Translations under genes and position numbers: made by a program | Notes under the pieces: model-generated | Told to the model about the DNA's origin: nothing | Databases searched by the model: none | Seen by the model: only the letters and a program-made list of their open reading frames with translations | Part shown: positions 6,784-48,074 of the stretch, piece after piece | Position numbering within the stretch: the stretch's first letter is position 1 | How the letters are laid out: each line of letters opens with the position of its first letter | Source: Anaerolineae bacterium | GTDB taxonomy: Bacteria; Chloroflexota; Anaerolineae; DUEN01 | Direction of reading: 5' to 3' | DNA length: 62,713 bases | Assembly: GCA_025060615.1 (NCBI GenBank) | Contig: JANXBS010000023.1 | Coordinates: 1 to 62,713 of the forward strand

Positions 6784-6792
6784 ATTATATCA
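6784..6792 (-). promoter_or_regulatory. Extended -10 promoter of secA
   Basis: On the minus strand the sequence reads TGATATAAT, an exact extended -10 (TGnTATAAT), 37 bases upstream of the secA start. No good -35 is present 16-18 bases further up, as is common for extended -10 promoters. Confidence 0.6.
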
Positions 6793-6858
6793 CCAGGGAT
6801 GGTGTTCTGGCGAATGGCAGCTTTACACTGCGGATTTATTATCCTCGTTTTTCCTGGG

Positions 6859-6886
6859 TTGACAACCCTATCGCTTGGGATAAGAT
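6859..6886 (+). promoter_or_regulatory. Possible promoter of the THEP1-like NTPase gene
   Basis: TTGACA (6859-6864) and TAAGAT (6881-6886) are spaced by 16 bases, about 68 bases ahead of the chosen GTG start. The -35 is exact and the -10 matches 4 of 6 positions. Confidence 0.45.
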
Positions 6887-6953
6887 ATCCTTGGCTCGCA
6901 GTCAAGTTGTACTTGGCGAAAGAAGCACGATTTCGCCACTAAGGTGGTCTGAG

Positions 6954-8510: not shown

Positions 8511-8884
8511 CTCATGCCTCAAGTAATCCATCTATCTTGTTCGTGTCATAGATACATTGTCCATTCTAGCATAAGGCCTTTCCTTACCTTCAACGATCTG
8601 CAGTGGTAATCGTAAGCAGTGGTGTAGGATGGCCGCTTATCTTACGCCAATAGGGTTCCCCATCGCGTCATTCAACCACACCCCCGAGCGCGTTGCTGCA
8701 ATTCGTCTGCTAGAAGGTTTGATTTGGAATGCGACGTTGGCAGGCCATGTGGAGTGGGATAGCTGCTTGCTTGAATCCAGCCTATCTACATGCTACAATT
8801 CTCTGTAGGTAAATCAAGGAGCTTAGTCAGGGCCAAACAGTCCGCAGGTTTTTCGATATATTGTTCGCTCGTTGAGCTAGACGA
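8511..8884. other. Intergenic region between the reductase gene and mscS, with divergent promoters
   Basis: This 374-base gap holds a candidate extended -10 for the reductase on the minus strand (TGCTAGAAT, complement of 8563-8571) and a strong promoter for mscS at 8771-8799. A 59-codon frame (8629-8808) crosses the latter promoter and is not considered a gene. No RNA motif or repeat was recognised in the middle part. Confidence 0.5.
8771..8799 (+). promoter_or_regulatory. Sigma-70-type promoter of the mscS-led operon
   Basis: TTGAAT (8771-8776) and TACAAT (8794-8799) are 17 bases apart, leaving an untranslated leader of about 80 bases before mscS. Eight genes follow on the same strand with overlaps or short gaps, so this may drive the whole set to 17.36 kb. 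Confidence 0.75.
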
Positions 8885-9691
8885 ATGCTGACTTTGCCTC
8901 TTTCCGGTACTGGCGCTCAACTGGCTTCGGTTGTCCTACGGCTTGGGCTGATCGGATTGCTGGCTTTTTTAGCCTGGCGCGGGGTACAATGGGCCGCCTG
9001 CCAAGCAGTACGTCGCCTAGAGGGGCCTGGTACCACGGCTGAACAACTGGACCGCCTGAAAACGCTCGTCTATGTCGGACGCAGCGTGGGCTATGCTCTG
9101 ATCCTGCTTATCGCCGGGCTGATGGCGCTGCAGTCTCTGGGTATCAACATCGCCCCGTTGTTGGCGGGAGCCGGTGTGGCTGGGCTAGCGCTCTCGCTGG
9201 GCGCGCAGACCTTGATTCGAGATTTCATTGGCGGGATTTTGATCCTCGCCGAAAATCAGTTTACCATTGGGGACACGATTCAAGTCGGAACCGTGACAGG
9301 AAGCGTGGAGCGCATCACCTTGCGGGCGACGTATCTGCGCGATGCGGAGGGGCGGCTATATGTAGTCCCCAACGGCGACATCCGGCTGGTCTCCAATCTG
9401 ACCGTGGGGTGGGCGCGAGCTGTAGTGGACCTGAGCGTGGATTACCGAGTAGATATGGACCAGGTGCTGCATACGCTGGAATCCGCAGCACAAACGGTCC
9501 AGGAAGATCCAACGATTCAGGCCAGCCTGCTCGAAGCGCCACAAGTTGTTGCCTGGGTAGGCCTCAAGGATCGAGCCGTGCAGGTTCAGCTGATGGCCAA
9601 AACCCGGCCAGGCCAGCAGTGGACGGTGGCGATGGCGCTGCGCAAGTATGCGGTAGAAGCATTGCGAGCCGCGGGCATCGAGATGGCATAG
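8885..9691 (+). CDS. mscS: Small-conductance mechanosensitive channel, MscS family
   Basis: The protein is 268 aa, close to E. coli MscS (286 aa). It has two N-terminal membrane segments and the pore-lining third helix (IAPLLAGAGVAGLALSLGAQTLIRDFIGGILILAE), followed by the beta domain (FTIGDTIQVGTVTGSVERITLRAT and VVPNGDIRLVSNLT). MscS channels open under membrane tension and release solutes on hypo-osmotic shock. It is the first gene after a good promoter and lies 29 bases before a glycosyltransferase fusion, so it may be part of an envelope-related operon. No strong ribosome site was seen before the ATG. Confidence 0.9.
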   Translation: MLTLPLSGTGAQLASVVLRLGLIGLLAFLAWRGVQWAACQAVRRLEGPGTTAEQLDRLKTLVYVGRSVGYALILLIAGLMALQSLGINIAPLLAGAGVAGLALSLGAQTLIRDFIGGILILAENQFTIGDTIQVGTVTGSVERITLRATYLRDAEGRLYVVPNGDIRLVSNLTVGWARAVVDLSVDYRVDMDQVLHTLESAAQTVQEDPTIQASLLEAPQVVAWVGLKDRAVQVQLMAKTRPGQQWTVAMALRKYAVEALRAAGIEMA

Positions 9692-9720
9692 GCGGGCGAG
9701 CTTCAGGGCGGAGTTGGGCT

Positions 9721-11817
9721 ATGGAAACTGTTCGTGTCGGCGTGGTCATCCCTGCGTTTAACGAGGCTCTTCATTTGCCGCGCGTGCTGGATGTGGTGAG
9801 TGGAGTGGATTGGCTCACGCAGATCGTAGTAGTAGACGATGGCTCAACCGACGACACGTTGGCCGTAGCGCAGCGGTACGCGCTTCAAGATCGGCGGATC
9901 TCTGTGATCCATTTGCCGCATAATCGAGGCAAGGCGGACGCCATGCTGGCTGGCGTCCAAGCGCTACGAGCCGACGTGGTGATCTTTCTAGACGCCGACC
10001 TGATCGGCCTACAGCCGCATCACCTGCGACAGCTTTATGAGGCCTTTACTGCTGGGCATTGCGACATGACGGTGGCGATCTTTCGCCGTGGGAGGCTGCA
10101 CACGGATTTCGCCCATTGGCTGACCCCATGGCTGAGCGGTCAACGCTGTCTCCGACGTTCCGCAGCCGAACAGGCGCTCCGATCTCTGCAGGGGAGCCGC
10201 TATGGCGTTGAGACTGGCCTGACCCTCTACGCCCGGAGACATGGCTGGCGTTACCGATACGTGGCCTGGGAAGGGCTCACCCATGTCGTCCAGGAACAAA
10301 AGCACGGTACCCTCCTTGGCCTGTGCGGGCATGCTCGCATGTATATTCAGATCGCGATGATGTTGCTGGCGCTCGGCGGCTCGATCGTGAGAAGCCGCCT
10401 CGTCTTCTCGCTTCACCTTTCACCGCTTTCTTACCAGCGTCTGGCCATCGTGGTCACTGTGCTGCTAGTTCTCACCTTGTGGTTAGGAGGCTATGATCGT
10501 TTACAAGCTCGCACCGAGCTGCGCTTGCGGGACCTAGCCACCCTTGAGGTCGAGCGCTATCATCGCATTCTGATCTTCGCCCCTCATCCCGATGATGAGG
10601 TGCTGGCGTCGGGGGGTGTCATCGCCACTGCCCTGGCCCTAGAGCCTGCCCCTGAGGTGCGCGTGGTCGTGGTTACGAATGGTGAAGCGTCCCTCTCAAC
10701 GGCGCTCGCCAATGGTTACAATCCTATATCACAACACAGCGTGCAGCGGCTGGCTGAGGCGCGCCGGCAAGAGAGCCTGCGCGCTTTGACTGCGCTTGGC
10801 TTATATCCTGAACAGGTTCAGTTCTGGGGGTTCCCAGATGGGGGGCTGGAACCGATCTGGCAACGGTATTGGACGGGCGAGGCTTCCTATCGCTCTCGCT
10901 GGACGGGTTTAACCTCTTCTGAACAGGCGGTCAACAGCCCTGTGGTCCCCTATACTGGTGCGGCCTTGCTGGGCCTCCTGCGGAAGGCACTGGCCGAGTT
11001 CCAGCCGGACGCGGTGGTGATGCCGCACCCGCGCGATGCGCATCCGGACCATCGTGCGCTGGCCTATTTCATCTCGGTGGCCATCTCGCTGAACCAGGCT
11101 GAGGGCCTTTTCCCCGCGCCCGATCTGTTCGCCTATGTGATATGGCTGAACATGTCGCCGCGCCCGGTAAGCATCCGTTTGGATCGCAACCCTCTGCGCC
11201 TCCCAGCACGGTTCAACGAGGACGCCGCCCAGTGGGTGCGTCTCCCCTTGACGGCCACGGTGCGCGAGCACAAGGCCATAGCGATCCAGGCATATCGCAC
11301 GCAAGCGCGCGTCTTGCCCTCTCTGCTGCGCAGCGCGGTGAGCGAGAACGAGGTCTTCACACGCCAGTTGCTGCAGCACGAGATCCCGCAAAGATCCTCT
11401 CCTCCACCCATGCCGCCTGATGAGATGTGGCAGCCTTTCCCATACGAGGAGGACTGGAAGTGGCCGGGCGCCTATCGCCTGGTAGCTCCCCTATCCCTGT
11501 GGGTGGCTGCCGATTCCAGGAACGTATGGCTAGCAGCGCAGCTTCCATCGGCCCCACGCAAAGGGCTTCAATATGTGTTCGTCGTGCGCACGGCGCACGG
11601 CTCCCAGCCCATTGAGATGCGCTTGCCAGCTCGCGAGGTGGCGCAGGCTCGTCACGGGCACTTCGTCCTAGCTAGGGTCCCTGTCGCGGAGCTAGATCGA
11701 GGCGAGTATGGACAGGTGTTGATGGTCTCGCTGGAAACGCGCTTGGCCGGCAGCCTCACTGTGACGCGAGGCACGTGGCGTTTGTTGTACCTGCCCGGAG
11801 GCTATCGACCCTCATGA
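9721..11817 (+). CDS. Fusion of a family 2 glycosyltransferase and a PIG-L/LmbE deacetylase
   Basis: The 698 aa protein joins two enzyme domains. Residues 1 to about 230 form a GT-A/GT2 domain like dolichyl-phosphate-mannose synthase: VVIPAFNEALHLPRVL, VVVDDGSTDDT, HNRGKADAM and the DxD motif FLDADL (D91, D93). One or two hydrophobic segments follow (LAIVVTVLLVLTLWLGG near 250-265). Residues from about 283 form a PIG-L domain with the zinc motif APHPDDEVLASGG (about 287-299) and the matching PHPRDAHPDH (about 435-445). A C-terminal region (from about 570) is unassigned and beta-rich. GT2 enzymes transfer sugars from nucleotide donors, often to polyprenyl phosphate; PIG-L enzymes de-N-acetylate GlcNAc conjugates. 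The start is the ATG at 9721; an upstream open frame overlaps mscS. The next gene overlaps by 4 bases. Confidence 0.85.
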   Translation: METVRVGVVIPAFNEALHLPRVLDVVSGVDWLTQIVVVDDGSTDDTLAVAQRYALQDRRISVIHLPHNRGKADAMLAGVQALRADVVIFLDADLIGLQPHHLRQLYEAFTAGHCDMTVAIFRRGRLHTDFAHWLTPWLSGQRCLRRSAAEQALRSLQGSRYGVETGLTLYARRHGWRYRYVAWEGLTHVVQEQKHGTLLGLCGHARMYIQIAMMLLALGGSIVRSRLVFSLHLSPLSYQRLAIVVTVLLVLTLWLGGYDRLQARTELRLRDLATLEVERYHRILIFAPHPDDEVLASGGVIATALALEPAPEVRVVVVTNGEASLSTALANGYNPISQHSVQRLAEARRQESLRALTALGLYPEQVQFWGFPDGGLEPIWQRYWTGEASYRSRWTGLTSSEQAVNSPVVPYTGAALLGLLRKALAEFQPDAVVMPHPRDAHPDHRALAYFISVAISLNQAEGLFPAPDLFAYVIWLNMSPRPVSIRLDRNPLRLPARFNEDAAQWVRLPLTATVREHKAIAIQAYRTQARVLPSLLRSAVSENEVFTRQLLQHEIPQRSSPPPMPPDEMWQPFPYEEDWKWPGAYRLVAPLSLWVAADSRNVWLAAQLPSAPRKGLQYVFVVRTAHGSQPIEMRLPAREVAQARHGHFVLARVPVAELDRGEYGQVLMVSLETRLAGSLTVTRGTWRLLYLPGGYRPS

Positions 11818-12899
11818 GGCGATGTGGTGCGAAGCCCTTGCTATCAGCCCGTCTCCTTCCCTGGCTGATCACCCTTTTGCTGGTGATCTTTTTAATCCGA
11901 CAGGGTCCCAGCTTGAGCGATCTGCATCGGGTGATCGTCCAGGCGCAGTGGTTTTGGCTCCTGTTGGCTGTGCTCTTTCAAGCCGGTGCTTACGGAGCCA
12001 TAACGTGGCTGAATGAGCTTCTGCTAAGCCAGTACCGGGTGTTAGTACCCTGGCTTCGTCAGTACCTCATTCAGCTCATCATGGCCTTCATCGAGGCTGC
12101 CATCCCCTCGATGGCGATCAGCGGGCTGGTACTGCGCGCCCGGCTGCTAAAGCCGTATGGCGCAACGGCGGATGTGGCCAGCGTCACCACCGTGGTAGAG
12201 ACGGTGCTGATTAGCGCCAGCGTGATCTTTCCCGCGTTTGTGGGGCTCGGATGGATGCTGCTCCACGGGATCGGCGACCGCCGGATCGAGTGGACGGTGC
12301 TGCTGTGGGGGATCGGCTTCCTGGGGGGCGGCGCGGTGCTGATATGGCAGTGGCGATCGGCCCGCCTGAAAGCCATCCAGCGGCGATGGGTGTTTGGGCT
12401 TGGCTCTTGGTGGGACCAGTACCTCCTGTCTCGCTTCCCCGATCGGCTGGGCCAGTGGCCTAGTGCCCGATGGATCGCGCGGGCGCGTTATCTGATGGCG
12501 GAAATGACCATCTTGCTGCGCACGCGTCCCATCGCCATCGTCAGCGCCCTCTGCCTGCGCACAGCCTCTGAGGCGCTGGGCTTCATTGGATGCTTTTACG
12601 CTTTCGGACAGCGCCTGCCGCCCTATACGCTGCTGTTGCTGTACACGCTGACGATCACCATCAACACCTTGGGGGCCATACCAGGCGGCGTGGGCCTGGC
12701 CGAGGTCTCGCTGGCCACCCTGTACGCGCAGTTCGACGTGGAGCTGGAGCGCGCGATGATCATCGCGCTGGCGTACCGGCTGACGGGATACTGGCTTCCA
12801 CGAGCGGTGGGCGGCCTTTCCTGGCTCTGGCTGGAGCGCCTCCATCGCGCGCCATTGGCCTCTGAGGGGCCGGCTGATGGCAATAGACAACCTGGTTGA
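11814..12899 (+). CDS. Lysylphosphatidylglycerol-synthase-like integral membrane protein (UPF0104/flippase-like)
   Basis: The protein (361 aa) is strongly hydrophobic with about seven to eight membrane helices. Its C-terminal signature, LGAIPGGVGLAEVSLATLYAQ, is characteristic of the UPF0104/LPG_synthase_TM family. Members include the membrane half of MprF and many proteins next to glycosyltransferases, where lipid transport is suspected. The start ATG overlaps the preceding stop (ATGA), suggesting translational coupling with the glycosyltransferase/PIG-L fusion. No synthetase (lysyl-transfer) domain is present, so lysylation of lipids is not supported. A lipid-flipping or glycolipid-handling role is inference from context. 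Confidence 0.82.
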   Translation: MRRCGAKPLLSARLLPWLITLLLVIFLIRQGPSLSDLHRVIVQAQWFWLLLAVLFQAGAYGAITWLNELLLSQYRVLVPWLRQYLIQLIMAFIEAAIPSMAISGLVLRARLLKPYGATADVASVTTVVETVLISASVIFPAFVGLGWMLLHGIGDRRIEWTVLLWGIGFLGGGAVLIWQWRSARLKAIQRRWVFGLGSWWDQYLLSRFPDRLGQWPSARWIARARYLMAEMTILLRTRPIAIVSALCLRTASEALGFIGCFYAFGQRLPPYTLLLLYTLTITINTLGAIPGGVGLAEVSLATLYAQFDVELERAMIIALAYRLTGYWLPRAVGGLSWLWLERLHRAPLASEGPADGNRQPG

Positions 12900-13524
12900 G
12901 GCGATCCGACAGCATTTTGATCGGCAATCCGCTCGCTATGACCGGAATCCCTTCACACGCTGGGTGGGGCGCAGCGAGCTCGCCGTCCTGCGGGCGATAA
13001 TCCCCCCGGCTCCTCAGCCGGGCATCACCCCGGCGCTGGACTTCGGGTGCGGAACTGGGCGGGTCGCGCGGCTGCTGCTGGAGCTGGGCTATTCGGTAAC
13101 CGGCTACGATCTGTCGCCGGGGATGTTGGCCCAGGCGCGGGCCGCGCTGGGATACTACTCCAGTATAACCTTCACGGCCGATCGCCGGTGGATTCAGATG
13201 CCATGGCCGCTGATCGTCTCACTGGGCGTGCTCGACTACTATCCGGACACGGCTCCATTGTGGCGAGAGTGGAATGAGCTTCTAGCCCTGGATGGAGTGC
13301 TGGTGGTCACCGCTCCCAACGCCAGCAGCCCGCTGGCGTGGCTGTACGCTGTGACGTCTCGTCTGTCTTGTCCGGCATTCCCCGTGACCGCCCGTGAGCT
13401 GTCGGAAAAAGCTCACCTAGCAGGGTTGCGGGTCACCGATTTGCGCGGCGCGTTCCCACGACATCCCGTGTGGGGACATACCCTCGTGCTACGGCTGGTG
13501 AAGAAAGAACCGGTCAGAGGCTGA
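12877..13524 (+). CDS. SAM-dependent methyltransferase (class I)
   Basis: The 215 aa protein has a class I methyltransferase core: motif I is ALDFGCGTGRVARLL (D55 to G61), followed by VTGYDLSPGMLAQARAAL and a motif IV-like region VSLGVLDYYPD. The overlap of 23 bases with the membrane-protein gene argues for a single transcript. Its substrate cannot be read from the sequence; sitting between glycolipid-type genes and an esterase, a lipid or sugar substrate is plausible. The C-terminal HPVWGHTLVLRLVKK is typical of the Methyltransf_25/UbiE-like group. Confidence 0.85.
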   Translation: MAIDNLVEAIRQHFDRQSARYDRNPFTRWVGRSELAVLRAIIPPAPQPGITPALDFGCGTGRVARLLLELGYSVTGYDLSPGMLAQARAALGYYSSITFTADRRWIQMPWPLIVSLGVLDYYPDTAPLWREWNELLALDGVLVVTAPNASSPLAWLYAVTSRLSCPAFPVTARELSEKAHLAGLRVTDLRGAFPRHPVWGHTLVLRLVKKEPVRG

Positions 13525-13553
13525 AACCAAGCGTATCGCAGGAGGAAGGAACA

Positions 13554-14510
13554 ATGGGCGATCCAAACCTTCGCCAAGCGATTCTCCATTGTCTGGGACG
13601 CTTCCCCGAGCGTGTTCCACTGGCGGCGGAGTTCGAACCCCCTATGGATTTGGGAGATCACACTCGCGCGCGGGTGAGCTATGCGGTCGAGCCGAACGAG
13701 CGAGTTACGGCCTGGCTGTTGTACCCGAAGGGGCCGAAGCTCGTGGGCGGATGGCCGGGCATCCTGGCGATCCATCAGCACGCTGGCCAGTACTACCTAG
13801 GCAAATCGGAGCCGGCCGGGCTGAGCGCCAACCGCATGTACCATTACGGGCTGGAGCTTTGTCGGCGCGGCTACGTGGTGCTCTGCCCTGATCACCTCTG
13901 TTTCGAGGACCGCCGGCCACCTGAGTACGTGCGCGTGGAAAGCGGCTCCCTTCAGGATCACGGGTACGAGTGGTTCGAGTTCACTCAGCGCATCCTACAT
14001 GGCTCGTGTCTCCAAACCAAGTATCTGCACGATCTCGTGTGCGCGCTCGAGCTGCTGGCTGGGTTGCCAGACGTCAACCCGCAACGCCTAGGCGCAATTG
14101 GCCACTCATTGGGTGGACAGGAGGCGCTCTGGTTGGCCTGGTACGATGATCGGGTGAAGGCTGCTGTCTCCTCGTGTGGGTTCAGCCTAATCCGCACGAT
14201 CCTGCGGGATAGGATCAACCACAACCTGGCCATGTATGTGCCAGGTCTATTAGAGGTCTGCGACATGGACGCGCTGGTGGCTGACATCGCCCCGCGCGCC
14301 TTCCTGCTCACCGCTGGCGAGGAGGATCGCATCTTCCCGATAGATGGAGTACGAGCGATCGTTGAGAAAGCCAAAGCGGCGTACGTGCAAGCTGGTGTGC
14401 CCGACCGCTTTCAGGCCATCCTCTTCCCCGCTGGTCACAGTTTTCCCGACGAGGTGAAAGCGGAAGCGTATGCCTTCCTAGATCGGTGGCTCAGGGATAG
14501 TAATCCATGA
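13554..14510 (+). CDS. Alpha/beta hydrolase, dienelactone-hydrolase/acetyl-xylan-esterase-like
   Basis: The 318 aa protein has a serine-hydrolase triad that can be placed by eye: nucleophile S185 in GHSLGGQE, acid D258 in GEEDRIF and H295 in PAGHSFP. The N-terminal half has the family landmark WPGILAIHQHAGQYYLGKSEPAG. This subgroup resembles the dienelactone-hydrolase-like family that includes carbohydrate esterases. No signal peptide is present, so it acts in the cytoplasm. The start ATG at 13554 follows AGGAGGAAGG. It overlaps the next gene by 4 bases (ATGA). The physiological ester is unknown. Confidence 0.8.
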   Translation: MGDPNLRQAILHCLGRFPERVPLAAEFEPPMDLGDHTRARVSYAVEPNERVTAWLLYPKGPKLVGGWPGILAIHQHAGQYYLGKSEPAGLSANRMYHYGLELCRRGYVVLCPDHLCFEDRRPPEYVRVESGSLQDHGYEWFEFTQRILHGSCLQTKYLHDLVCALELLAGLPDVNPQRLGAIGHSLGGQEALWLAWYDDRVKAAVSSCGFSLIRTILRDRINHNLAMYVPGLLEVCDMDALVADIAPRAFLLTAGEEDRIFPIDGVRAIVEKAKAAYVQAGVPDRFQAILFPAGHSFPDEVKAEAYAFLDRWLRDSNP

Positions 14511-15271
14511 CGAGGTGCTCTCCTATGTTGGCCGATATCGTCTTGACCGTATCGCAATCCAAGCGGCTCATCGCCAAAGGCGTGGCCATCCACCCGGCTG
14601 TCCAACGTGCCCGCCAGCGAGGGTGGTTGATTATCGCCACCGGTACCACCAATGGATATGTCGTCGAAGAAGTGCTTGGCCAGCCGTTCGATAAGTATGC
14701 CTACGTTACCGGTCATGTGGTCCCCGCCGGCTTTGACAGCAAGACCCGGCTGGCGCCTCAAAATTTACCCGATGTCATCTTGCACGATGGGGAATTAGTG
14801 GCCGATGTGACCCGCTTCGAAGCCGCCCGTCAGCTCGGCCCCGGCGACGTGTTTATTAAAGGGGCCAATGCGCTGAACTACGAGAGGAAGGTGGCCGGTG
14901 TGTGCATCGGCGATACCAACGGCGGCACAGTCGGCGGCACCTTAGGGCCGATCATCGGCCGGCGCGCTACGCTGATCATCCCTGTGGGGCTGGAGAAGCT
15001 GGTGGCCCACGACATCCTGGAGACGGCGCGTCTGCTGGGCCAAGGTGAGGAGACAGTCAATCACGTGTACCCGCTCTTTCCCATCACCGGCGAGATCATC
15101 ACTGAGATCGAGGCGCTCGCGCTGCTCTGCGGCGTGCAAGCCCGTCATGTGGGATCGGGCGGCATCTTTGGGGCTGAAGGGGCCGTCCGTCTCCTGCTCC
15201 AGGGCACACCAGAAAAGATCGAGGCAGCGTTGCAGTTGGTACGGGGGTTGCAAGCAGAACCGGCTTTCTGA
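14507..15271 (+). CDS. Conserved-looking protein of unknown function
   Basis: I do not recognise this 254 aa protein. It is soluble, with no membrane segment. It is glycine-rich, with possible nucleotide- or phosphate-binding loops: IIATGTTNGYVVEE, GDVFIKGANALN, CIGDTNGGTVGGTLGPIIGRRATLIIPVGLEKL and SGGIFGAEGAVRLLLQG. It ends with a possible small alpha/beta subdomain. The ATG at 14507 overlaps the upstream stop; a second ATG at 14525 with GAGG ten bases upstream is an alternative. It lies between an esterase and a ROK sugar kinase in an apparent operon, so a sugar-related role is possible but unproven. Confidence 0.65.
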   Translation: MTRCSPMLADIVLTVSQSKRLIAKGVAIHPAVQRARQRGWLIIATGTTNGYVVEEVLGQPFDKYAYVTGHVVPAGFDSKTRLAPQNLPDVILHDGELVADVTRFEAARQLGPGDVFIKGANALNYERKVAGVCIGDTNGGTVGGTLGPIIGRRATLIIPVGLEKLVAHDILETARLLGQGEETVNHVYPLFPITGEIITEIEALALLCGVQARHVGSGGIFGAEGAVRLLLQGTPEKIEAALQLVRGLQAEPAF

Positions 15272-20147: not shown

Positions 20148-20181
20148 AAAAAGCTCCTCACGTCTCAAGGACGAGAGGAGC
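20148..20181 (-). terminator. Regulated intrinsic terminator of the valS leader
   Basis: On the minus strand GCTCCTC (complement of 20175-20181) pairs with GAGGAGC (complement of 20153-20159), followed by TTTTT at 20152-20148. The 5' arm abuts the T-box core, as needed for mutually exclusive antiterminator and terminator folding. It lies 27 bases before the valS start. Confidence 0.9.
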
Positions 20182-20417
20182 TCCCGCGGTACCACCTTGG
20201 TTGACAGGGGCATTGCAGGCTTCGTAAGCCGCTTTCATGCTTCCCCTGCCCGCTCTGCGCTGTAACGGGCGAACCCGTGCCCCCTTACTGTGGTTCAGGA
20301 GGCCAGCTCCCCGGCGACCTTCAACGGCGCCCATCGAGCGAGGCTCACACCCGGCGACCTCACCTCTCTGACGATGGCAGACCGTCTACTCCTCCGGTTC
20401 CCAGCCGTTAGGTATGT
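20148..20417 (-). promoter_or_regulatory. T-box riboswitch leader of valS
   Basis: The minus strand carries the T-box core AAGGTGGTACCGCGG (complement of 20184-20198), just ahead of a terminator hairpin. Further up are an AGAGAG element with a paired GGTGTGAGCC-type distal stem (Stem I) and a specifier-loop-like GAAGGTCGCC. The codon GTC in it (complement of 20316-20318) is a valine codon, which fits the downstream valS. T-box RNAs pair the specifier with the anticodon and the T-box bulge with the uncharged CCA end, favouring the antiterminator. The 5' end is set from the promoter. Confidence 0.92.
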
Positions 20418-39993: not shown

Positions 39994-40401
39994 TCAATTT
40001 GCCCTTAAACGCGGGCGAAATTTATAGCCGTACACGATCTGCCCTTCAGGGCCTTCCTCGGTCAGCTTACGGGTCACCATCTCTACCGGCATGCCGATAT
40101 GCACCTCGTCTGGATGCACGTCGGTGAGCTGAGCGGTCACCATGGGCCCTTCCTCCAACTTGATCAGGGCTACCGTGTACGGGAGATACGCTTCATAGCC
40201 CTGTGGGCCATCATACATGACAGAATAGGAGTAAACCTGGCCCCGCCCACTCAGCATATAGGATGTTTGAGCCGACTCCGCACAGTGGGGACAGGTGTCC
40301 CTGGGCGGGAACAAGGCGTTTCCACAGCGTTCACAGCGCTCTCCCACTAATCGGTAACGTTGCTGTCGGATTCGCCAGTTCCTAGGTATATGGACAACCA
40401 T
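39994..40401 (-). CDS. DUF35 (Zn-ribbon/OB-fold) acyl-CoA-associated protein
   Basis: From the ATG at 40401 (GAGGAGG just upstream) the protein has 135 aa. An N-terminal rubredoxin-like Zn-ribbon has C23, C26, C37 and C40 (GERCERCGNALFPPRDTCPHC). An OB fold follows (GRGQVYSYSVMYDGPQGYEAYLPYTVALIKLEEGPMVTAQL-type region). In archaea, DUF35 proteins scaffold a complex between thiolase and HMG-CoA synthase and channel acetoacetyl-CoA. Being the last gene after mvaA, mvaS and thiolase, it very probably has that role here. A longer frame to 40440 is not supported by a ribosome site. Confidence 0.88.
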   Translation of the reverse strand: MVVHIPRNWRIRQQRYRLVGERCERCGNALFPPRDTCPHCAESAQTSYMLSGRGQVYSYSVMYDGPQGYEAYLPYTVALIKLEEGPMVTAQLTDVHPDEVHIGMPVEMVTRKLTEEGPEGQIVYGYKFRPRLRAN

Positions 40402-40572
40402 AGAGCCTCCTCGAGCACAAGCTAGGCCCATTGTATCCATATCCCGCTCTCACGAACTATCAATCTGTGCATCCTTCCTGTCTGCCTGCTACATTTGATA
40501 GTTTTTGACAGTGGAGCAGCACCTTGTCGGATACAGGCCAGCTTGCAGGTGTCACGGCCGATAGAGAGCTGG

Positions 40573-41742
40573 TCAATCGGCGGCTTCCAAGATGTGTGTG
40601 ATCACTGTGGCGCCGCTGCCGCCGATGTTCTGAGCCATCCCCAGCCGAGCCGATGGAAGCTGGTTGGGGCCGGCGCGGCCGGTGAGCTGCTGTACTATTT
40701 CCACGATCTGGTAAACACCCGTCGCCCCCACGGGGTGTCCCCGCGCTTTTAGCCCGCCCATGGTTGAGATCGGGATGCGCCCCTCCAGGGTGATGTCACC
40801 GTTCATCGCCAGGCGCACCCCCTCACCACGCCGGGCGAAGCCGGCCGCCTCCAAAGACAGCGCCGCCATGATGCTGAAGGCGTCGTGCAGCTCAAACAGG
40901 TCAATGTCGGCGGGCGTCACCTGAGCCTGCGCATAGGCCTTCTGGCACGATAGAAAGGCCGCCTCCAAGAAGAGCGGGTCCCGCCGATCGTGGATGGCTA
41001 CTGAGTCGGTGGCGATGGCCGAGCCGATGATACGCGCGATCCCGTGAGCCTGTCGCGCCCGTCGAGCCACCTCGCTGTCGGCAGGGGCCAGCACTACAGC
41101 GGCAGCCCCGTCGCAGACAGGGGATGAGTCGAGCAGGTTGATGGGATCAGCAATCATAGCTGCCTGCTGATATGCCTCCACCGTGATCGGCCTGGGGAAC
41201 ATGGCGTTGGGGTTGCCGACAGCGTTGTGATGTGCATTCACCGCAAATCCAGCGAACGCATCATGGGGCACGCGAAACTCGTGCATATACCGGCGCATCA
41301 GCATCGCGTTCAGCGCTACAAACGAGATCCCCTGGCCAGCCTCGTACTCTTGATCCGCCGCCATCGCCAGGGCAGAGGTGATCACTTCCGATGGGCTATC
41401 CGTCATCTTCTCCACCCCCGCCACCACCACTACATCGTGTATTCCGCCGGCGACGGCGATGTAGCCCATGCGCAGAGCAGCTGCGCCGGAGCCGCAGGCC
41501 GCTTCGATTTTGACCGCTTCCACTCCACGCAATCCCACGAAATCCGCGATTAGGGCTCCCAGGTGTTCTTGGCCGACTAACTCGCCGGAAAGCATATTCC
41601 CTACATACAACGCGTCGGGCCGCTCAACCCCTGCATCGTGCAAAGCCGCTCTCACTGCGTCATGGGCCAGATGCCGCAACGAGCGGTCCCAATGTTCGCC
41701 CACTGGCGTCTGGCCGATGCCGATAATCGCTACGTCCCGCAT
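40573..41742 (-). CDS. Acetyl-CoA acetyltransferase (archaeal-type thiolase)
   Basis: The 389 aa thiolase-fold protein has the nucleophilic Cys83 in IEAACGSGAAALRMG and the C-terminal GHPVGATGVYQIVEIVQQLTG. The sequence resembles archaeal and SCP2-type thiolases more than the bacterial PhaA/AtoB group (e.g. GMLS/NMLSGELVGQEHLGALIADFVGL). It condenses two acetyl-CoA to acetoacetyl-CoA. It lies between mvaS and the DUF35 gene, as in archaeal operons. Confidence 0.88.
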   Translation of the reverse strand: MRDVAIIGIGQTPVGEHWDRSLRHLAHDAVRAALHDAGVERPDALYVGNMLSGELVGQEHLGALIADFVGLRGVEAVKIEAACGSGAAALRMGYIAVAGGIHDVVVVAGVEKMTDSPSEVITSALAMAADQEYEAGQGISFVALNAMLMRRYMHEFRVPHDAFAGFAVNAHHNAVGNPNAMFPRPITVEAYQQAAMIADPINLLDSSPVCDGAAAVVLAPADSEVARRARQAHGIARIIGSAIATDSVAIHDRRDPLFLEAAFLSCQKAYAQAQVTPADIDLFELHDAFSIMAALSLEAAGFARRGEGVRLAMNGDITLEGRIPISTMGGLKARGHPVGATGVYQIVEIVQQLTGRAGPNQLPSARLGMAQNIGGSGATVITHILEAAD

Positions 41743-41786
41743 TCCTAACCTCTACCCGCTATAATTCACTGATGGGCTTCTGCAGG

Positions 41787-42836
41787 CTAGCTCATCAGCA
41801 GCTTGCCCCGAAAGCGGGCATACCTCGCGTAGTTGATGACTTGTCGCCGTTTGATATACTCTCTCGTCAGCGGCGCCAGATGGCGTCGCGCCTCGATTTG
41901 CTCCGTCGCCACCCAGGAGAAGGCGTCGCTGCCGGCGCCAGAGCCGAAGCTGACCAGCAGGATGCGATCCCCTGGCTGCGCCTCGTCCAGCACGGCCGAG
42001 AGCCCTAACAGCGAGGAACCAGCGTAGGCGTTACCGATGCGTCCCACCAGTAGCCCCGCCTCAATCTGCTCCCGTCGGAATCCTAGCATCTGCGCGACAC
42101 GCTGTGGGAACTTAACATTGGGCTGATGGAACACAGCATATCGGAAGTCGGCCGGCTGCAAACCCATCTCGTCGAGCAGTTGGCGGGCTGCCGAGATGAT
42201 GTGGTGAAAGTAAGCTGGTTCACCTGTGAAACGTTGACCGTGGCTGGGATAGCGGGCGTGAGGTCGCCGCCAGAAGTCTGAGGTATCAGTGACATAGGAG
42301 ATGGAACCCTCACACACGGCCAGGCTTTCCTCCGCCGGGCCGATCACATAGGCTGCGCCGCCCGCGCCAGCGGTGTACTCCAACGCGTCACCCGGGCGCG
42401 CCTGTGCTGCGTCTGCGCCAATGCACAGCGCGTAGTCGGCCATGCCCGAGCCCACCAGCCCGATAGCCGCTTGAATCGCCTCGGTCCCCGCTTTACAGGC
42501 GAATTCCCAGTCAGCGGCTAAGGTGAATGGAACTGCGCCGATTGACTCGGCCACGATCGTTGCGGTAGGTTTGACCGCATAAGGGTGCGACTCGCTGCCC
42601 ACCCACACGGCCCGAATTTGGGCGGGGTCTACGCAGGCGCGCGCCAATGCATTGCGCGCTGCCTCGATGGACATGGTCACCGTATCTTCGTCCAGCCCCG
42701 GCACTGCCTTCTCCTCGATAGGCAGGCTGCTCTGGCCGTCACTCCACACCTGGGCCACCTCTACTGCTGGCAGGCGATAGCGCGGCACATATGCTCCGTA
42801 GCCGACGATTCCCACACCTCGAACTGGTCTCAACAT
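41787..42836 (-). CDS. mvaS: HMG-CoA synthase (archaeal type)
   Basis: The 349 aa protein has [19 protein letters not shown] at its start, the catalytic Cys114 in [15 protein letters not shown], a His in [16 protein letters not shown], and the later [19 protein letters not shown]. The length and motifs match archaeal HMG-CoA synthases (about 345 aa) and not the longer bacterial or eukaryotic form. It adds acetyl-CoA to acetoacetyl-CoA. GAGG lies 7 bases before the ATG. Confidence 0.93.
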
Positions 42837-42901
42837 ACCACAACCTCATCGTTAGTGAACCGGCGAGCAAACAAATCAGCGAATGGGCGAATCAGCACTC
42901 C

Positions 42902-44203
42902 TCACCTCCCTTGTCGTCCATCGTCTGCCCTTTGTCGTCGTTCTGCCAACAGCGCCTGCGCCCGATCCAGTCGGATGGCGCGCTCAGCTACCATCTGCTC
43001 AGCTACCCAGTCTACTTCGTCACCCATGGCGCCCGCGGCGATCGCTACTTGACGGGCGTGTAGCGCCATGTGGCCGCGCTGGATGCCTTCCGTTGCCAGG
43101 GCGCGCAGGGCGGCCAGATTTTGCGCTAGCCCCACCGAGGCCACCACTGCTGCCAGCTCGCGCGCACTTTGTACGCCCAGAATGCGCAGTGCTAAGCGCG
43201 CGCCCGGATGCGCGCGAGTAGCCCCGCCGACGATCCCTAACGCCAGCGGCATCTCCAGCCGGCCTACCAGATTCCCCTCGGCATCCTTCTCCCAGACGGA
43301 AAGAGGTCGATAGCGTCCATCCCGCGCCGCGTAGGCGTGCGCTCCAGCCTCAATGGCCCTCCAGTCGTTGCCTGTAGCCAACACAACGGCATCCACACCG
43401 TTCATGATGCCCTTGTTGTGCGTCGTTGCCCGATACGGGTCGGCGGCCGCCAGCGCATAGGCTTCTACGATGCGATCTACTACAGCCGGGCCCGGCAACG
43501 CGTTTGTCTCGAGGGCGTGAGCCGGCACCCTGCAGCGCGCCCGCGCCAGCCGCCGATCGGCCAGGTTGGACAGGATGCGCAAGTTGACACGACCGCCCGT
43601 GATCTCTTCCACGAGGGGAGCCAGGGCCTCGCAGGCGGTGTTGACCATGTTAGCGCCCATGGCGTCGCGGCAATCATACAATACATGCACTACCAACATC
43701 GGCCCCGCCGGGCTTTCTGGCACGATCCGGGCCTCTATATCGCGCGCGCCGCCGTGTAGGCTGACGATCACGGGATCGGTCTGGTTGGCTAAGTCCAGCA
43801 GGCGTTGTTTCTGAGCCAACACCGCCGCCCGCGCTGCCTCGACATCAGTCAACCCTAGCACCTGGATTTGCCCGATCATCAGCGATTCGTCGCTCTCCGC
43901 GAAGAAGCCACCGCCCTCACGGGCGAGCCTAGCCGCATAGCTCGCCCCTGCCACCACAGAGGGCTCCTCGATCACCATCGGGATCAAATAGTCCTTGCCA
44001 TTGATCAGAAAGTTGACCGCGATGCCCATCGGCAAGGGATACAACCCGATCACGTTCTCGATCATCTTGTCGGCCTGAGAGAGCGCCAGGCTTCGTTCGA
44101 GCAGCGCAGCCTCTTCGGCGTCTAGTCCGGCCCATTCAGCTACGACGCGAGCCCTTGCCTCAGCGCTCAATCGGTAGAATCCGCTAATCCGGGATGATGG
44201 CAC
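42902..44203 (-). CDS. mvaA: Hydroxymethylglutaryl-CoA reductase, class II-like
   Basis: The 433 aa protein is a full-length class II (bacterial/archaeal, soluble) HMG-CoA reductase: IGLYPLPMGIAVNFLINGKDYLIPMVIEEPSVVAGASYAA-type region, MGANMVNTACEALAPLVEEITGG, THNKGIMNGVDAVVLATGNDWRAIEAGAHAYAARDG and GGATRAHPGARLALRILG. It makes mevalonate from HMG-CoA. The GTG start is near a GGAGGG site. It leads the operon; mvaS starts 65 bases after its stop. Downstream mevalonate kinase and other genes are not in the window. Confidence 0.95.
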   Translation of the reverse strand: MPSSRISGFYRLSAEARARVVAEWAGLDAEEAALLERSLALSQADKMIENVIGLYPLPMGIAVNFLINGKDYLIPMVIEEPSVVAGASYAARLAREGGGFFAESDESLMIGQIQVLGLTDVEAARAAVLAQKQRLLDLANQTDPVIVSLHGGARDIEARIVPESPAGPMLVVHVLYDCRDAMGANMVNTACEALAPLVEEITGGRVNLRILSNLADRRLARARCRVPAHALETNALPGPAVVDRIVEAYALAAADPYRATTHNKGIMNGVDAVVLATGNDWRAIEAGAHAYAARDGRYRPLSVWEKDAEGNLVGRLEMPLALGIVGGATRAHPGARLALRILGVQSARELAAVVASVGLAQNLAALRALATEGIQRGHMALHARQVAIAAGAMGDEVDWVAEQMVAERAIRLDRAQALLAERRQRADDGRQGR

Positions 44204-44216
44204 AGGCCCTCCACAC

Positions 44217-44241
44217 AGAAAAGGCCCCGTCTATCGGAGCC
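44217..44241 (-). terminator. Intrinsic terminator behind the antiporter-like genes
   Basis: On the minus strand GGCTCCG pairs with CGGGGCC (one G-U), followed by TTTTCT (complement of 44217-44241). It lies about 85 bases after the stop of the NuoN-like gene and just before the HMG-CoA reductase start, so it insulates the two operons. The reductase promoter must be close to or inside this short gap; none was obvious. Confidence 0.7.
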
Positions 44242-44325
44242 TCTTTGGTCTGAGCGATTGTTTAGGATAGGGTTAATGTATCACACATCCGCTATCAAAA
44301 TCTATCAGGCTACTTCCAATCCATC

Positions 44326-45741
44326 TCACGGCATGGGGCTCAGCGATTGCGTGATGATGCCGATCACCGTATACACGACGCCATTGGTGATCTGTGGGAT
44401 CATCCCTAGCATCCCAGAGAGGGCTACACCCATCGCGAGCAAAGCGGCCGTCACCGGGGTTTCCCGCGGCGCGGGGCGCTGTCCTGGCACTGGTGTGGCC
44501 CAGAAGGCTTGCAAGAGACGCAGATATCCCAAGGCGACACCGAGCTGCCCGGCCACCACCAGCAATCCCCATCTCGGCTCGGTGAGGAGAAGAATCTGGA
44601 TGAGCGCCCATCGCGGCGCGAACAAGGCTGTTAGCGGGAAGCCGGCCAACCCTAATCCGCCAACCATAATGCCGAGCGTCGTCCATAGCGATCGCCGCGC
44701 CTGTCCGCGCACCGAATCCCAATCATCTTGCACGGCGCGAGCGCGCAAACTAGCTAGGCCGTAAGCGCTCAGGAATAGGCTGATGGCGCGTCCCACGAAG
44801 AGGGCGGCTGCCATCCGCCATTCCAGCGGAGCGCCCAGGCTGAATCCGAGTAACAACACCCCCCAATCGTGCAGGGCGGCATAGGCCCATAGCCGCTGCA
44901 CGCGTTCCGCTGAAAGCGCGCCGAGAGCCCCCCATAACAGCGTTATGAGCCCGCTAAAAGCTAGGATCCGGCTCACCTCGATATGCTCGACCAGCCACGG
45001 CCATGTGACAAAGATGGTCCACACCAGATGCAAAGTGGCGAGCTGCATACCCGTGATAAGGAACGCGCCCACTACCGGCGAAGCTCGCGTCAGAAGGGAG
45101 ACAGATGGGGCGTGTAGTGGGACTGGGGCCAGCAGCAATAGCAGGGCCAGGCCTATGAGGCGCGCGGCCAATTGGATGTGCATCGCGTCATCCGTCTGAT
45201 AGGTAGCCTCCTGGGCATGCCACGCAGCTAAGATCCCCAACGAGAACGCAATCAGTGGCCACCACATCTGGCGAAACGCCGCACGCGTGCCCATGGATCC
45301 GCCTCCCTGGATAACGAACACGGATAGGCAGCTCGCGGCCAGCAGCGCTGACAAGGCACCCGTAGGCGGCTGCACGATCACCGAACTCATCCATAGTGCC
45401 AGGATGATCAAGCCAATGGGGACGAAGATGGGCGCAGCCCGCTGAATCCAGGTGCCGGCGAAGGTCGCCAGCGCGATCAGCCCCAGCGCAGCCAGGATTG
45501 GGCGTTCTGCCTCAGTCACAGCCAGAGTATAGCCAAGCCCCGTCAAAGGTTGGCCGAGTAGAACTGCTCGACCTCCGATCAGCCTCACCTGGTCCAGAGG
45601 CCAGTATAAGCTGACGGCCACCAAGGCCACACCGATGAGACCCGCTGTGAGCGTCGAGAGGATTCCCCATCGCCGCAACGGATATGCCAGCACAGCCGCC
45701 AGCATGACCCCGCCCATGATCAGCGTAGGCCCCTCGATCAC
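44326..45741 (-). CDS. Complex I/hydrogenase antiporter-like membrane subunit (NuoM/N-like, divergent)
   Basis: The 471 aa protein is almost entirely hydrophobic with about 13-14 helices and resembles NuoN/HyfB-type proton-translocating subunits, but weakly. The usual TM7 block (K..P.H.W.PD) appears as LAPVPLHAPSVSLLTRASPVVG, without the conserved lysine or the WLPDA motif. Later helices contain LWAYAALHDWGVLLLGF, comparable to the family's YSSISHLG region. The GTG start overlaps the upstream stop (GTGA). Proton transfer is therefore uncertain; it might be a scaffold subunit. Third gene of a three-gene membrane operon. Confidence 0.65.
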   Translation of the reverse strand: MIEGPTLIMGGVMLAAVLAYPLRRWGILSTLTAGLIGVALVAVSLYWPLDQVRLIGGRAVLLGQPLTGLGYTLAVTEAERPILAALGLIALATFAGTWIQRAAPIFVPIGLIILALWMSSVIVQPPTGALSALLAASCLSVFVIQGGGSMGTRAAFRQMWWPLIAFSLGILAAWHAQEATYQTDDAMHIQLAARLIGLALLLLLAPVPLHAPSVSLLTRASPVVGAFLITGMQLATLHLVWTIFVTWPWLVEHIEVSRILAFSGLITLLWGALGALSAERVQRLWAYAALHDWGVLLLGFSLGAPLEWRMAAALFVGRAISLFLSAYGLASLRARAVQDDWDSVRGQARRSLWTTLGIMVGGLGLAGFPLTALFAPRWALIQILLLTEPRWGLLVVAGQLGVALGYLRLLQAFWATPVPGQRPAPRETPVTAALLAMGVALSGMLGMIPQITNGVVYTVIGIITQSLSPMP

Positions 45742-46415
45742 CTCTGATCCTCCCGAGTCTGGAAGACGCGCGTGTTAGCTCGTTGGGCGACGATCAGGTA
45801 AGCACAGGACAACCCTACCAACAGCTTCATCACCCCCGCTATGCCTTCCGTAACGACATTTCGCTCCAGGGCGGAGTAGTACAAGTGAAAGGCCTCCAGC
45901 CACCACAACAGCCCGATGCCTGCGGTGAGCACTTCATCGCTCAGCGCAAGGGCCAGCAGGCCCATAGCCGCCAGCCAGACGCACAAAATGCCTAAATCCG
46001 GTTCAAGCTCTTTCAACAGCGACCAGGGGCGGATGGAGAGGAGGAAAAGGGCCACCAAGATCACGACGATCAATCGTAAAGTGCTGTGGGCCGAAAGCGG
46101 TGGCCATCGCCATCGCAACCATCGTTCTGGCGATCTCCCCCATCGCGTGGCCTGGGCGGACAAGATCCACATGCCGGTCACCAACCCCCCTGTGACCATC
46201 CGCAGAAAAGCCCATTCGAGCGGCGAATGACGGGCGGCTAGGACGGCTAGCAACACCGATTGGGCTCCCATGCCCGCCACGATCAACCGCCAATTCGTCG
46301 CCACAATCATCAAAGTTGTGATCGCGATCAGGAGGAGCACACCGATCAACCCATCGAGAAGGGCAACGGAGGCATGGAGACGTTCTAAGAACGGAAGGAA
46401 GGGAAAGGGATTCAT
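45738..46415 (-). CDS. HyfE/NuoK-like membrane protein (tentative)
   Basis: The 225 aa protein has about seven membrane helices and a length close to HyfE of hydrogenase 4 (about 216 aa). It includes LLLIAITTLMIVATNWRLIVAGMGAQSVLLAVLAA and a charged conserved-looking loop LKELEPDLGILCVW. It lies between two NuoM/N-like genes, a typical position for the HyfE/MrpC/NuoK-like subunit. Residue conservation cannot be checked by eye, so the family call is by context and shape. It starts 12 bases after the upstream gene. Confidence 0.55.
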   Translation of the reverse strand: MNPFPFLPFLERLHASVALLDGLIGVLLLIAITTLMIVATNWRLIVAGMGAQSVLLAVLAARHSPLEWAFLRMVTGGLVTGMWILSAQATRWGRSPERWLRWRWPPLSAHSTLRLIVVILVALFLLSIRPWSLLKELEPDLGILCVWLAAMGLLALALSDEVLTAGIGLLWWLEAFHLYYSALERNVVTEGIAGVMKLLVGLSCAYLIVAQRANTRVFQTREDQR

Positions 46416-46427
46416 CCTTACCGGACC

Positions 46428-48074
46428 TCAAGGCCGCAGCAAGATCCAGAATAACAACAACGTCAGCAGCACCCAGCCCAAATACCCTTCGCCTTCAATG
46501 GTACGCAGCACGGCTTGCCAAAAGGCTTGCCACCCGCGCGTTCCGGTCTGAGCCAGGCCATAGATCCAATCCAAGCGGGCTACAAAGGCGACGACTTTTC
46601 GCAATTCCTGCCATCGCACGATGGTGGGTTCCCAGGCGTAGTTCAGCCACAGCGCAACTGCGGAGATAACCAGCAGACGCGCCCAAACCACGGAAGGCAT
46701 GTGCAAGATCAACGGAAGCAACCCAGAGGAAAGCGTATTCATCCCCATGAGCCGCAGCGCGATCGCCGGCTGGAGCCCCACGAACAGGACTGGGACGGCC
46801 AGCAGAACGGTAGTGGCCAGCAAACGCATCTCATGCGCGGACATGCGCGTGGTGAGCGGGATGGAGGTCTGCTGCCAGCCGCGAAGCAACGCGGCCAATA
46901 CTAGCGCATCGGCCGCGACTGTGATTATCCAGAAGAAGACATATCCGGTGGGGGGAGCCAGTCGAGCGGTCCACGCCTGGCCGATAAAGCCGGCCGTCGC
47001 TGGATAGCCCAGAAGCGTCAGCACCGCCAGCGCACCCGGCCAGCGTCCACCCCATGCTTGGTTTACCAGATAAGCCACCAAGAGCATTCCCATACCTAGG
47101 CTGAAGGCGAGCAACCAGCCGGCAATCGGAAATGCCCCCTGTCCAGGCCATAAGCTCATCGCTAGCAAGATCACTCCAGCACGGTTCGCGCAGACCAGAT
47201 CCAGCGAGCGATCTCGATCGGGCTCAGCCCAAGCGGCGATGGCGCTGCCAAACAAGGAAACGGACAACAGTCCCAGCCACTGTGGCTCGCCAACCCAGGC
47301 GATGCCCATCATGCCATTTATCTGCCCTAAAAGCCAGAGGCTTGTGACGGCAGGGATCAGATACACAGAGAACCGTTCGGCTGCCGAGTTCAACCGGCTG
47401 TGAAGAAGCCAGCCGTGAAGGGGATAAACCGCCGCCCGCAGGGCCAACGCCGTGCTTATTAACCCTTGGACCAGCGGCGAGAACTCAGCACTGGTGAGTG
47501 GGGCCTCGAGCAAAGCAGGGCCAGAGAGTGCGCAGGCCGCTGCCATCAGGAGCGCACTGGCTGCGCTCAATCCTGCCCGTCCGGTCTCCGATCTATAGGC
47601 AGGCTCCAAGATCAGCCGGGCCAGAGCCACCGACTCCATTAGGACCCACATGCTGGCCAGGGTCAGCAGGTTAGCCGAGAAGGTGACCATCAACGCCACG
47701 GCGGTCAGAGAGAGGTCCGCTGCCCGATAATAGGCGGCCGATCGGCCGCCCTCATCCCAGGCCAACAAGGCGATCGCCAGCCCAAGCAACGCGATCAAGA
47801 AACCGCCCATCCAGGTCCAGGCATTCACCTGCCAGATGAGCCCGCCTTCTTGGTCAAACAATACAGAGGCCCAGGGGCGGCCGACGGTGATGATCGCCCG
47901 TGAGGAACTCAACGCGATCAGCGTAGCCCAAGCCCCCAGGTGGGCGACCAACGCCCAGAGGGGAGCCCAACGATGCCAGGGAGACAAACGCCATAATAGA
48001 AGGGCTAACACCCCCGCCCCCAGTACGAGAGATGGCCCCAATGGCTGGATCAGCCAGATCAAGCTCTCCTCCAC
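46428..48074 (-). CDS. Complex I/Mrp antiporter-like membrane subunit (NuoL/M-like, divergent)
   Basis: The 548 aa protein has about 14 helices and is NuoM/MrpD-like. Helix 5 contains ASMWVLMESVALARLILEP, recalling the FFFFWELM Glu region, but the Glu is shifted. The TM7 block reads LRAAVYPLHGWLLHSRLNSAAERFSVYLIPAVTS-type sequence, with Arg in place of the usual Lys and LPDA missing. A helical C-terminal extension (ARLDWIYGLAQTGTRGWQAF) recalls the end of NuoL. It is the first gene of the set. An unusual low-conservation pump subunit is the best description. Confidence 0.68.
   Translation of the reverse strand: MEESLIWLIQPLGPSLVLGAGVLALLLWRLSPWHRWAPLWALVAHLGAWATLIALSSSRAIITVGRPWASVLFDQEGGLIWQVNAWTWMGGFLIALLGLAIALLAWDEGGRSAAYYRAADLSLTAVALMVTFSANLLTLASMWVLMESVALARLILEPAYRSETGRAGLSAASALLMAAACALSGPALLEAPLTSAEFSPLVQGLISTALALRAAVYPLHGWLLHSRLNSAAERFSVYLIPAVTSLWLLGQINGMMGIAWVGEPQWLGLLSVSLFGSAIAAWAEPDRDRSLDLVCANRAGVILLAMSLWPGQGAFPIAGWLLAFSLGMGMLLVAYLVNQAWGGRWPGALAVLTLLGYPATAGFIGQAWTARLAPPTGYVFFWIITVAADALVLAALLRGWQQTSIPLTTRMSAHEMRLLATTVLLAVPVLFVGLQPAIALRLMGMNTLSSGLLPLILHMPSVVWARLLVISAVALWLNYAWEPTIVRWQELRKVVAFVARLDWIYGLAQTGTRGWQAFWQAVLRTIEGEGYLGWVLLTLLLFWILLRP

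Follow-up and report, generated by a model that had tools for sequence, protein, structure and literature searches.

What becomes of antiporter-like membrane proteins of the complex I family when no redox partner is encoded beside them? The question is raised by three genes on contig JANXBS010000023.1 of the Anaerolineae bacterium assembly GCA_025060615.1. The entire contig (G000:C23, 62,713 nt, from a home genome of 3.86 Mb) was analysed, and is called the window throughout. They are arranged head to tail, all on the minus strand: P3 (46428..48074), an antiporter-like membrane protein of the NuoL/MrpA type with 548 amino acids (aa); P2 (45738..46415), a small HyfE-like membrane protein of 225 aa that served as the marker of the system; and P1 (44326..45741), an antiporter-like membrane protein of the NuoN/HyfF type with 471 aa. 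A spacer of 12 bases separates P3 from P2, and P2 shares 4 bases with P1.

We consider it rather probable that these three genes encode the membrane arm of a complex of the Hyf/Ech type, related to the group 4 [NiFe] hydrogenases, whose redox subunits were lost in the window's class. Loci read in relatives are given L-labels and genomes G-labels, G000 being the home genome. No account of the trio was found in the literature by title or abstract, subscription papers and preprints being outside the scope of the search.

Homology of the three membrane proteins

An earlier note on this DNA had described two complex I antiporter-like genes around a HyfE-like gene at 44326-48074; its coordinates were exact, and the proposed homology is supported, weakly in the case of P2. 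P1 matched PF00361 above the Pfam cut-off (41 bits) and the NCBIfam NuoN model TIGR01770 at 1.1e-13, below that model's own cut-off, and MbhH and MrpD were among its best profile matches in the Protein Data Bank (PDB). As a single sequence searched with HMMER, P3 matched no Pfam or NCBIfam family and no PDB chain. Some of the 36 members of its family matched NuoN and Mrp models (at most six members per model, best 6.9e-17), and the 36-member profile found MrpA (7d3u_A, 1.5e-17) as its best PDB match, with NuoM (3rko_M, 3.1e-15) and ND5 also detected. P1 can be assigned to the PF00361 family by the Pfam cut-off, and P3 by profile only.

Profile-profile alignment with hhalign gave P3 probabilities of 92.9-98.7% against sets of NuoL, NuoM, NuoN, Hyf_D, Hyf_F and DabB-like proteins (97.5-98.5% for the NuoL/M/N sets), and no match to a single HyfB sequence. 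For P3 and P1 together, the range was 92.9-99.6% against the NuoL/M/N and Hyf_D/Hyf_F sets, with two controls at about 0, and the two proteins are homologous to each other (99.2%). The highest P3 value, 98.7%, was to a home-genome protein whose label 'DabB-like' is provisional and was assigned in this analysis. The trio resembles the DabA/DabB inorganic-carbon transporter in having an antiporter-like protein outside complex I, but no DabA partner was noticed beside it.

The likeness of P2 to HyfE is weaker. Searched as a single sequence with HMMER, P2 matched no Pfam or NCBIfam family, and a Pfam scan of 30 homologues gave scattered weak matches only. The best hhalign result (E 6.5e-4 over 156 columns, probability at most 27.5%) was to a target that combined HyfE with a small protein of the home genome, compared with E-values of 0.075-0.55 for the controls (NuoH and a permease); HyfE alone gave no match. 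Two residues, Arg43 and Arg114, are invariant across 30 aligned P2 sequences. With an AlphaFold2 model of P2 built from a two-row alignment (pLDDT 62.5), Foldseek returned nothing at E ≤ 0.001, and eight of the first nine rows from VIA were complex I, NDH or MBS chains, the best Z being 9.6, in a range (below ~13) that may reflect merely a common helical-bundle arrangement. Assignment of the first half of P2 to DUF4040/MbhD rested on an E-value of 0.07 only, and was rejected.

Proton-path residues

Proton transport by complex I is considered to depend centrally on the Lys/Glu wire of its antiporter-like subunits (PMC5938582, PMC11496545). We compared the trio with 15 canonical subunits (nine from the home genome and six from E. 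coli), all of which keep the Glu of transmembrane helix (TM) 5 and the Lys of TM7. Sequences were kept by length (29 of 34 for P1, 31 of 33 for P2 and 37 of 37 for P3), and L053 was then excluded from alignments A1-A3 (letter X).

In the window, P3 has lost the TM5 Glu and carries Arg213 at the TM7 Lys position (motif LRAAVYPLHGWLLHS), and an acid, Glu147, sits four residues past the conserved Trp143. P1, too, lacks the TM5 Glu; it has Leu203 at the TM7 Lys position (motif LLLLLAPVPLHAPSVS) and has lost the WLPDA block. The claim of the earlier note that the TM7 Lys and WLPDA are altered in one protein and lost in the other is borne out by these residues. Neither the TM5 Glu-TM7 Lys pair nor the terminal Lys/Glu of TM12, by which the antiporter family is recognized, was found in the trio of the window or of its close homologues.

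Close homologues show the same pattern. Neither the TM7 Lys nor the TM5 Glu occurs in any of the 37 P3 or 29 P1 sequences; Arg takes the TM7 position in 29/37 P3 proteins and Leu in 27/29 P1 proteins. An acid lies three residues beyond the TM5 Glu position in 29/37 P3 sequences (Asp in 24, Glu in 5). The TM12 position is held by Arg (17), Gln (9) or other residues in the 37 P3 sequences, and by Arg (16), His (7), Gln (5) or Phe (1) in the 29 P1 sequences. Window P1 contains no lysine at all, as is the case for 13/29 close P1 homologues, and window P3 contains one, near the C-terminus, compared with 7-14 in the nine canonical antiporter-like subunits of the home genome. Other residues are strongly conserved: P1 His210 in 28/29, P3 His220 (216 in the trimmed alignment) in 36/37, and an invariant G-x-P near TM12 (P3 Gly356/Pro358 and P1 Gly366/Pro368, numbered as in alignments A1 and A3).

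The picture is less uniform among wider relatives. Distant P3 homologues, of which 12 of 13 loci passed the length filter, have Arg at TM7 in 12/12 and the TM5 Glu in 0/12, and the 20 distant P1 homologues have Leu (10) or Trp (5) at TM7 and a Glu in the TM5 column in six. Outside the window's class, the P3 proteins of L114 and L115 possess both the TM5 Glu and the TM7 Lys, which are absent from the other 10 examined; the 12 P1 proteins there lack both residues, an Arg occupies TM7 in nine of them, and four have an exact WLPD, with altered forms in the others. Judged by sequence alignment, the usual Lys/Glu proton wire is absent from the trio of the window and of its close homologues, and some of its residues persist in L114, L115 and the six distant P1 proteins.

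The residues that remain are pertinent to a rival explanation, namely that ion movement persists through a changed chemistry, with Arg/His and shifted acids in place of Lys/Glu, and that the trio acts as a cation/proton exchanger or channel of a reduced Mrp type, which we regard as possible but doubtful. The conserved His of both proteins, the invariant G-x-P, the P3 acid and Arg, and the frequent Arg at TM12 are all consistent with such an activity, as is the identity of the best PDB match of P3. The trio is like the Mrp Na+/H+ antiporter in this MrpA match, in the MrpD match of P1 and in the lack of redox subunits, but differs from it in lacking the canonical Lys/Glu; in addition, no MrpB/E/F/G-like genes were noticed in the neighbourhoods, which were inspected by eye with no profile search. 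The absence of lysine from P1 also argues against ion movement, and Arg is a poor proton carrier.

Mutational work on isolated complex I antiporter modules, which conduct protons, bears on both sides of this question. In that report, changing the middle or terminal Lys of Nqo12 and Nqo13 to a nonpolar residue, or the terminal Glu to Gln, blocked conduction (only partially in one assay), whereas changing the TM5 Glu to Gln increased it (PMC11496545). Because neutralization of the TM5 Glu raised conduction, its loss alone is no argument for a dead pump.

Redox partners in the window, its class and other classes

Open frames of the window did not match E. coli NuoCD, E, F, G, H or I, or HyfA, C, G, H or I; the NuoB query was out of frame, as the E. 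coli gene runs off its locus, and so was faulty, and the queries did not include Mrp accessory subunits. A NuoD/HyfG-like profile detected a hydrogenase-type large subunit in 0/60 loci of the same class, in the stretches read, where HyfG, HyfI, HyfC and HyfA/H also gave no match. The earlier note was correct that no hydrophilic Nuo or hydrogenase partner was to be found nearby, as far as these queries and loci extend.

The trio does not appear to have been stand-alone by origin, as the earlier note had called it. In 9/13 loci from other classes of the phylum (L105-L109, L112, L113, L115 and L117), the gene immediately upstream of the trio encodes a NuoD/HyfG-like large subunit, which places a hydrophilic partner in the same operon in these relatives. 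The six large subunits scanned (L105, L107, L109, L112, L113 and L115) matched PF00346 at 1e-30 to 6.3e-48. Both Ni-ligand CxxC motifs are intact in five of the eight that were aligned (L105, L106, L107, L115 and L117) and the first is broken in three (L109, L112 and L113), the large subunit of L108 being outside this alignment.

In four of those nine loci (L107, L108, L113 and L115), P1 is followed directly by a HyfI/NuoB-family small subunit, the case of L113 being the weakest. The assignment rests on HyfI matches (L107, L108 and L115) and on PF01058, which was above the cut-off in L107 and L115 and below it in L113, L108 not being covered by that scan. It does not rest on the six-row small-subunit profile, because L107, L108 and L113 are themselves rows and match by construction; a further row, E. 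coli NuoB, was out of frame. The small subunits of L107 and L108 retain all four cluster cysteines, that of L113 retains three and that of L115 none.

The outside loci were read for genes starting at 5000-15000, a range outside which the trio of L110 falls (P2 at 4246-4869); queries with E. coli NuoI, HyfA and HyfH matched nothing in these loci. In L111 and L113, where gene calls gave a wrong-strand frame, P2 was placed by profile search, and the label P3 in some outside loci reflects position and weak profile scores.

A gradient runs through the phylum: CxxC motifs, small-subunit cysteines and the P3 Lys/Glu are retained in some outside loci and degenerate in others. Because loci of other classes have large and small redox subunits beside the trio, we interpret the window's trio as the remnant of a hydrogenase-type complex. 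Its closest known counterparts are E. coli Hydrogenase-4 (Hyf) and the group 4 [NiFe] hydrogenases Ech and Mbh, which are alike in combining NuoL-type and NuoN-type subunits with a HyfE-like small protein and, in the outside loci, in the HyfG-like large subunit and (in four) the HyfI-like small subunit of the cluster. The form in the window's class differs in the lack of any HyfG, HyfI, HyfC or HyfA/H match, in the lost TM5 Glu and TM7 Lys, and in a lysine-free P1. Ehr, which is described as coupling a cytoplasmic redox reaction to charge translocation (PMC6349859), is also similar, having antiporter-like subunits and a large subunit of the hydrogenase-like family, the Ni ligands being degenerate in some outside loci. 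It is distinguished from the window form by the adjacent redox subunit, and from the outside loci by their lack of a NuoI, HyfA or HyfH match.

Two further observations concern the outside loci. The small-subunit gene of L115 (L115:7890-8483, minus strand; PF01058, 31.4 bits) is HyfI-like with its four cluster cysteines gone, while the large subunit of the same locus retains both CxxC motifs. A 270-aa membrane protein of no clear family is encoded downstream in six loci, L105 (11913-12737), L107 (6789-7607), L108 (12243-13064), L113 (within 6976-8148), L106 and L117; its identification as NuoH was rejected as too weak (hhalign E 0.032, probability 1.6%).

The presence of large and small subunits beside the same trio in other classes would also fit a working redox complex in the window's class, with soluble subunits encoded elsewhere and assembled in trans. 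The home genome does have NuoD/HyfG-like matches, strong at C10, C14 and C4 and weak and partial at C10 and C3. The two strong matches whose neighbourhoods were read, at C10 and C4, however, lie in clusters with their own membrane arms alongside, and the strongest match, at C10, belongs to a hydrogenase-like cluster, leading us to consider assembly in trans quite improbable.

The C10 region (L047, G000:C10:17000-36999) encodes a HyfG-like large subunit with both CxxC motifs, a small subunit, a NuoH-like protein and two antiporter-like subunits, and is perhaps a complete group 4 [NiFe] hydrogenase. Elsewhere in the home genome, L046 (G000:C9:45000-64999) holds a second complex I membrane arm, with BLAST matches to NuoJ, K, L, M and N and NuoH- and NuoA-like genes recognized by eye; no peripheral subunit was noticed by eye within the 20 kb listed.

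Conservation and selection

The P2 profile had matches in 161/199 genomes of the window's class and in 107/400 genomes of a phylum-wide sample; a search with the single P3 sequence found 48/199 class genomes. The order P3-P2-P1 is preserved in 33/37 close loci. The exceptions are L058, where P3 stands alone and P2 is on another contig of that genome, L060, and L069 and L074, which sit at contig ends. All 20 distant loci have P2 next to P1, and in 13 of them P3 was detected as well. In trees of both proteins, the canonical subunits form one group apart from all trio members (support 100/100 for P1 and 98 for P3).

The trio genes are under purifying selection. The ratio of nonsynonymous to synonymous substitution (dN/dS) for the trio was 0.17-0.29 between the window and two relatives and 0.06-0.29 for other pairs, compared with 0.07-0.10 for the neighbouring HMG-CoA reductase (HMGR) gene; these values are rough, because synonymous change approaches saturation in the more distant pairs. 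Such constraint bears on whether the trio is a decaying leftover without function. Decay would agree with the loss of partners, with the faster divergence of the trio (window to L042, 61% identity for P3 and 82% for HMGR) and with the in-frame stops in five of the 150 P2 matches listed, one of which, in G013, is the gene's own stop codon. However, no internal stop occurs in any P3 match listed from the class, dN/dS is well under 1 in every pair tested and P2 is widespread in the class, making decay very improbable.

Together, the loci of this one phylum constitute a natural series, at one end of which large and small subunits accompany the trio, while at the other the membrane trio stands bare, under purifying selection. 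The series offers a test bed for functions of antiporter-like folds other than pumping, and for the gain and loss of modules in complex I-like machines.

A model for the present role of the trio

The trio appears to have lost its redox partners and the usual proton-carrying residues, yet many related bacteria maintain it intact, and it therefore probably has a function other than classical proton pumping. We propose that the ancestor was a redox-coupled ion pump, whose redox partners and proton wire would have been lost stepwise, in an order that we infer, leaving a trio that would not pump protons by the known mechanism. The weakest steps of the model concern what remains: P3, P1 and the HyfE-like linker P2 may still assemble as a membrane complex, which would retain the G-x-P of the TM12 region and, in P3, an acid-Arg pair in place of the Glu-Lys pair, and which may serve a redox-independent role as a structural element or scaffold, or as a gated leak, rather than in energy conversion.

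A number of points weigh against this model. The AlphaFold2 model of P3 (two-row alignment) was unusable (pLDDT 39), and the placement of residues in P3 consequently rests on sequence alignment. The columns of the middle Lys in TM8 are misaligned even among the references, though window P1 has no Lys in any case. The remaining Arg, His and acidic residues of P1 and P3 may allow an unusual ion path. In several same-class loci the sequence is short or breaks off at a contig end next to the trio, and an adjacent partner could be missed; the trees are midpoint-rooted with many long branches; and the direction of change, in which redox subunits were lost and not gained, is what we infer. On balance we favour a non-pumping membrane complex as the present role, with altered ion conduction as its main rival. 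The proposal of the earlier note that the module is non-pumping or differently coupled remains a fair reading, given the altered residues and the lack of a detected redox partner, once its stand-alone origin is set aside.

Mevalonate genes and an upstream element

Just downstream of the trio, on the same strand, are mevalonate genes that the earlier note had overlooked. HMGR (42902..44203, minus strand; PF00368, 1.4e-116) is followed on that strand by an HMG-CoA-synthase-like protein (41787..42836; best Pfam match ACP_syn_III_C, HMG_CoA_synt_C only weak), a thiolase, probably an acetyl-CoA acetyltransferase (40573..41742), and a DUF35/ChsH2-type OB-fold protein with a zinc ribbon (39994..40440). 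The region 39994-44203 is an upper mevalonate-pathway cluster with thiolase, HMG-CoA-synthase-like and DUF35 genes side by side, an arrangement that recalls the archaeal thiolase/HMGCS/DUF35 complex.

This neighbourhood raises the further possibility of a partnership between the trio and the mevalonate enzymes, in which, for instance, the three proteins would anchor HMGR, HMGS, thiolase and DUF35 at the membrane or regulate them. HMGR adjoins P1 on the same strand in 21/37 close and 2/20 distant loci, P2 and HMGR are linked in at least 28/199 class genomes overall, and all 15 P2-HMGR pairs within 6 kb among the matches listed have the same orientation. Yet HMGR occurs in 186/199 class genomes and P2 in 161/199, while at least 15 of the 111 genomes listed in both searches have the two within 6 kb, a lower bound as assemblies are broken; in G034 the pair is 6.7 kb apart on opposite strands. 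The element described below also argues against a functional link, which we judge unlikely.

Before HMGR lies a conserved motif, TGATAGATTTTGATAG (44292..44307, minus strand), with a second match between the thiolase and DUF35 genes (40496-40511, plus strand). Its consensus is TGRTAG-N3-TTGRNAG, a TGATAG/TGACAG repeat of period 10, often followed by a TATAAT-like box. A near-identical pattern has two exact matches in the home genome, both in the mevalonate cluster and none before P3, and a reversed control pattern has none in that genome. Of 23 linked loci, 17 have the exact element in the gap from P1 to HMGR, in the orientation of the gene, and one more, L054, has it on the opposite strand. 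Where HMGR is remote from the trio or is carried on a different contig, 10/14 regions have the element no more than 170 bases before the approximate start of HMGR (one of them, in G126, comes from a genome with no P2 match among those listed). At L075 it is located in the interval that separates the divergent HMGR and P3 genes. The pattern suggests that the element is likely a regulator site for mevalonate genes, which probably have their own promoter; shared location is for this reason weak evidence for shared function. The mevalonate cluster is a positional partner of the trio, with its own promoter-like element. A broader speculation, which we offer tentatively, is that an antiporter-like hydrogenase arm, uncoupled from redox and from the Lys/Glu wire, has acquired a new redox-independent role class-wide, tied in some lineages to isoprenoid (mevalonate) metabolism. 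If so, the complex would illustrate, in nature, complex I-like subunits that selection maintains although they do not pump.

The gap between P1 and HMGR (44204..44325, minus strand) also contains a terminator-like hairpin followed by a T run, with a local fold of about -15 kcal/mol. The hairpin is not strong against shuffled sequences (whole-gap z only -1.1), matched no Rfam family at gathering score and was not among the matches of the consensus scan. Elsewhere in the window, a T-box leader was found at 20164-20411 on the minus strand (Rfam RF00230, 111.8 bits).

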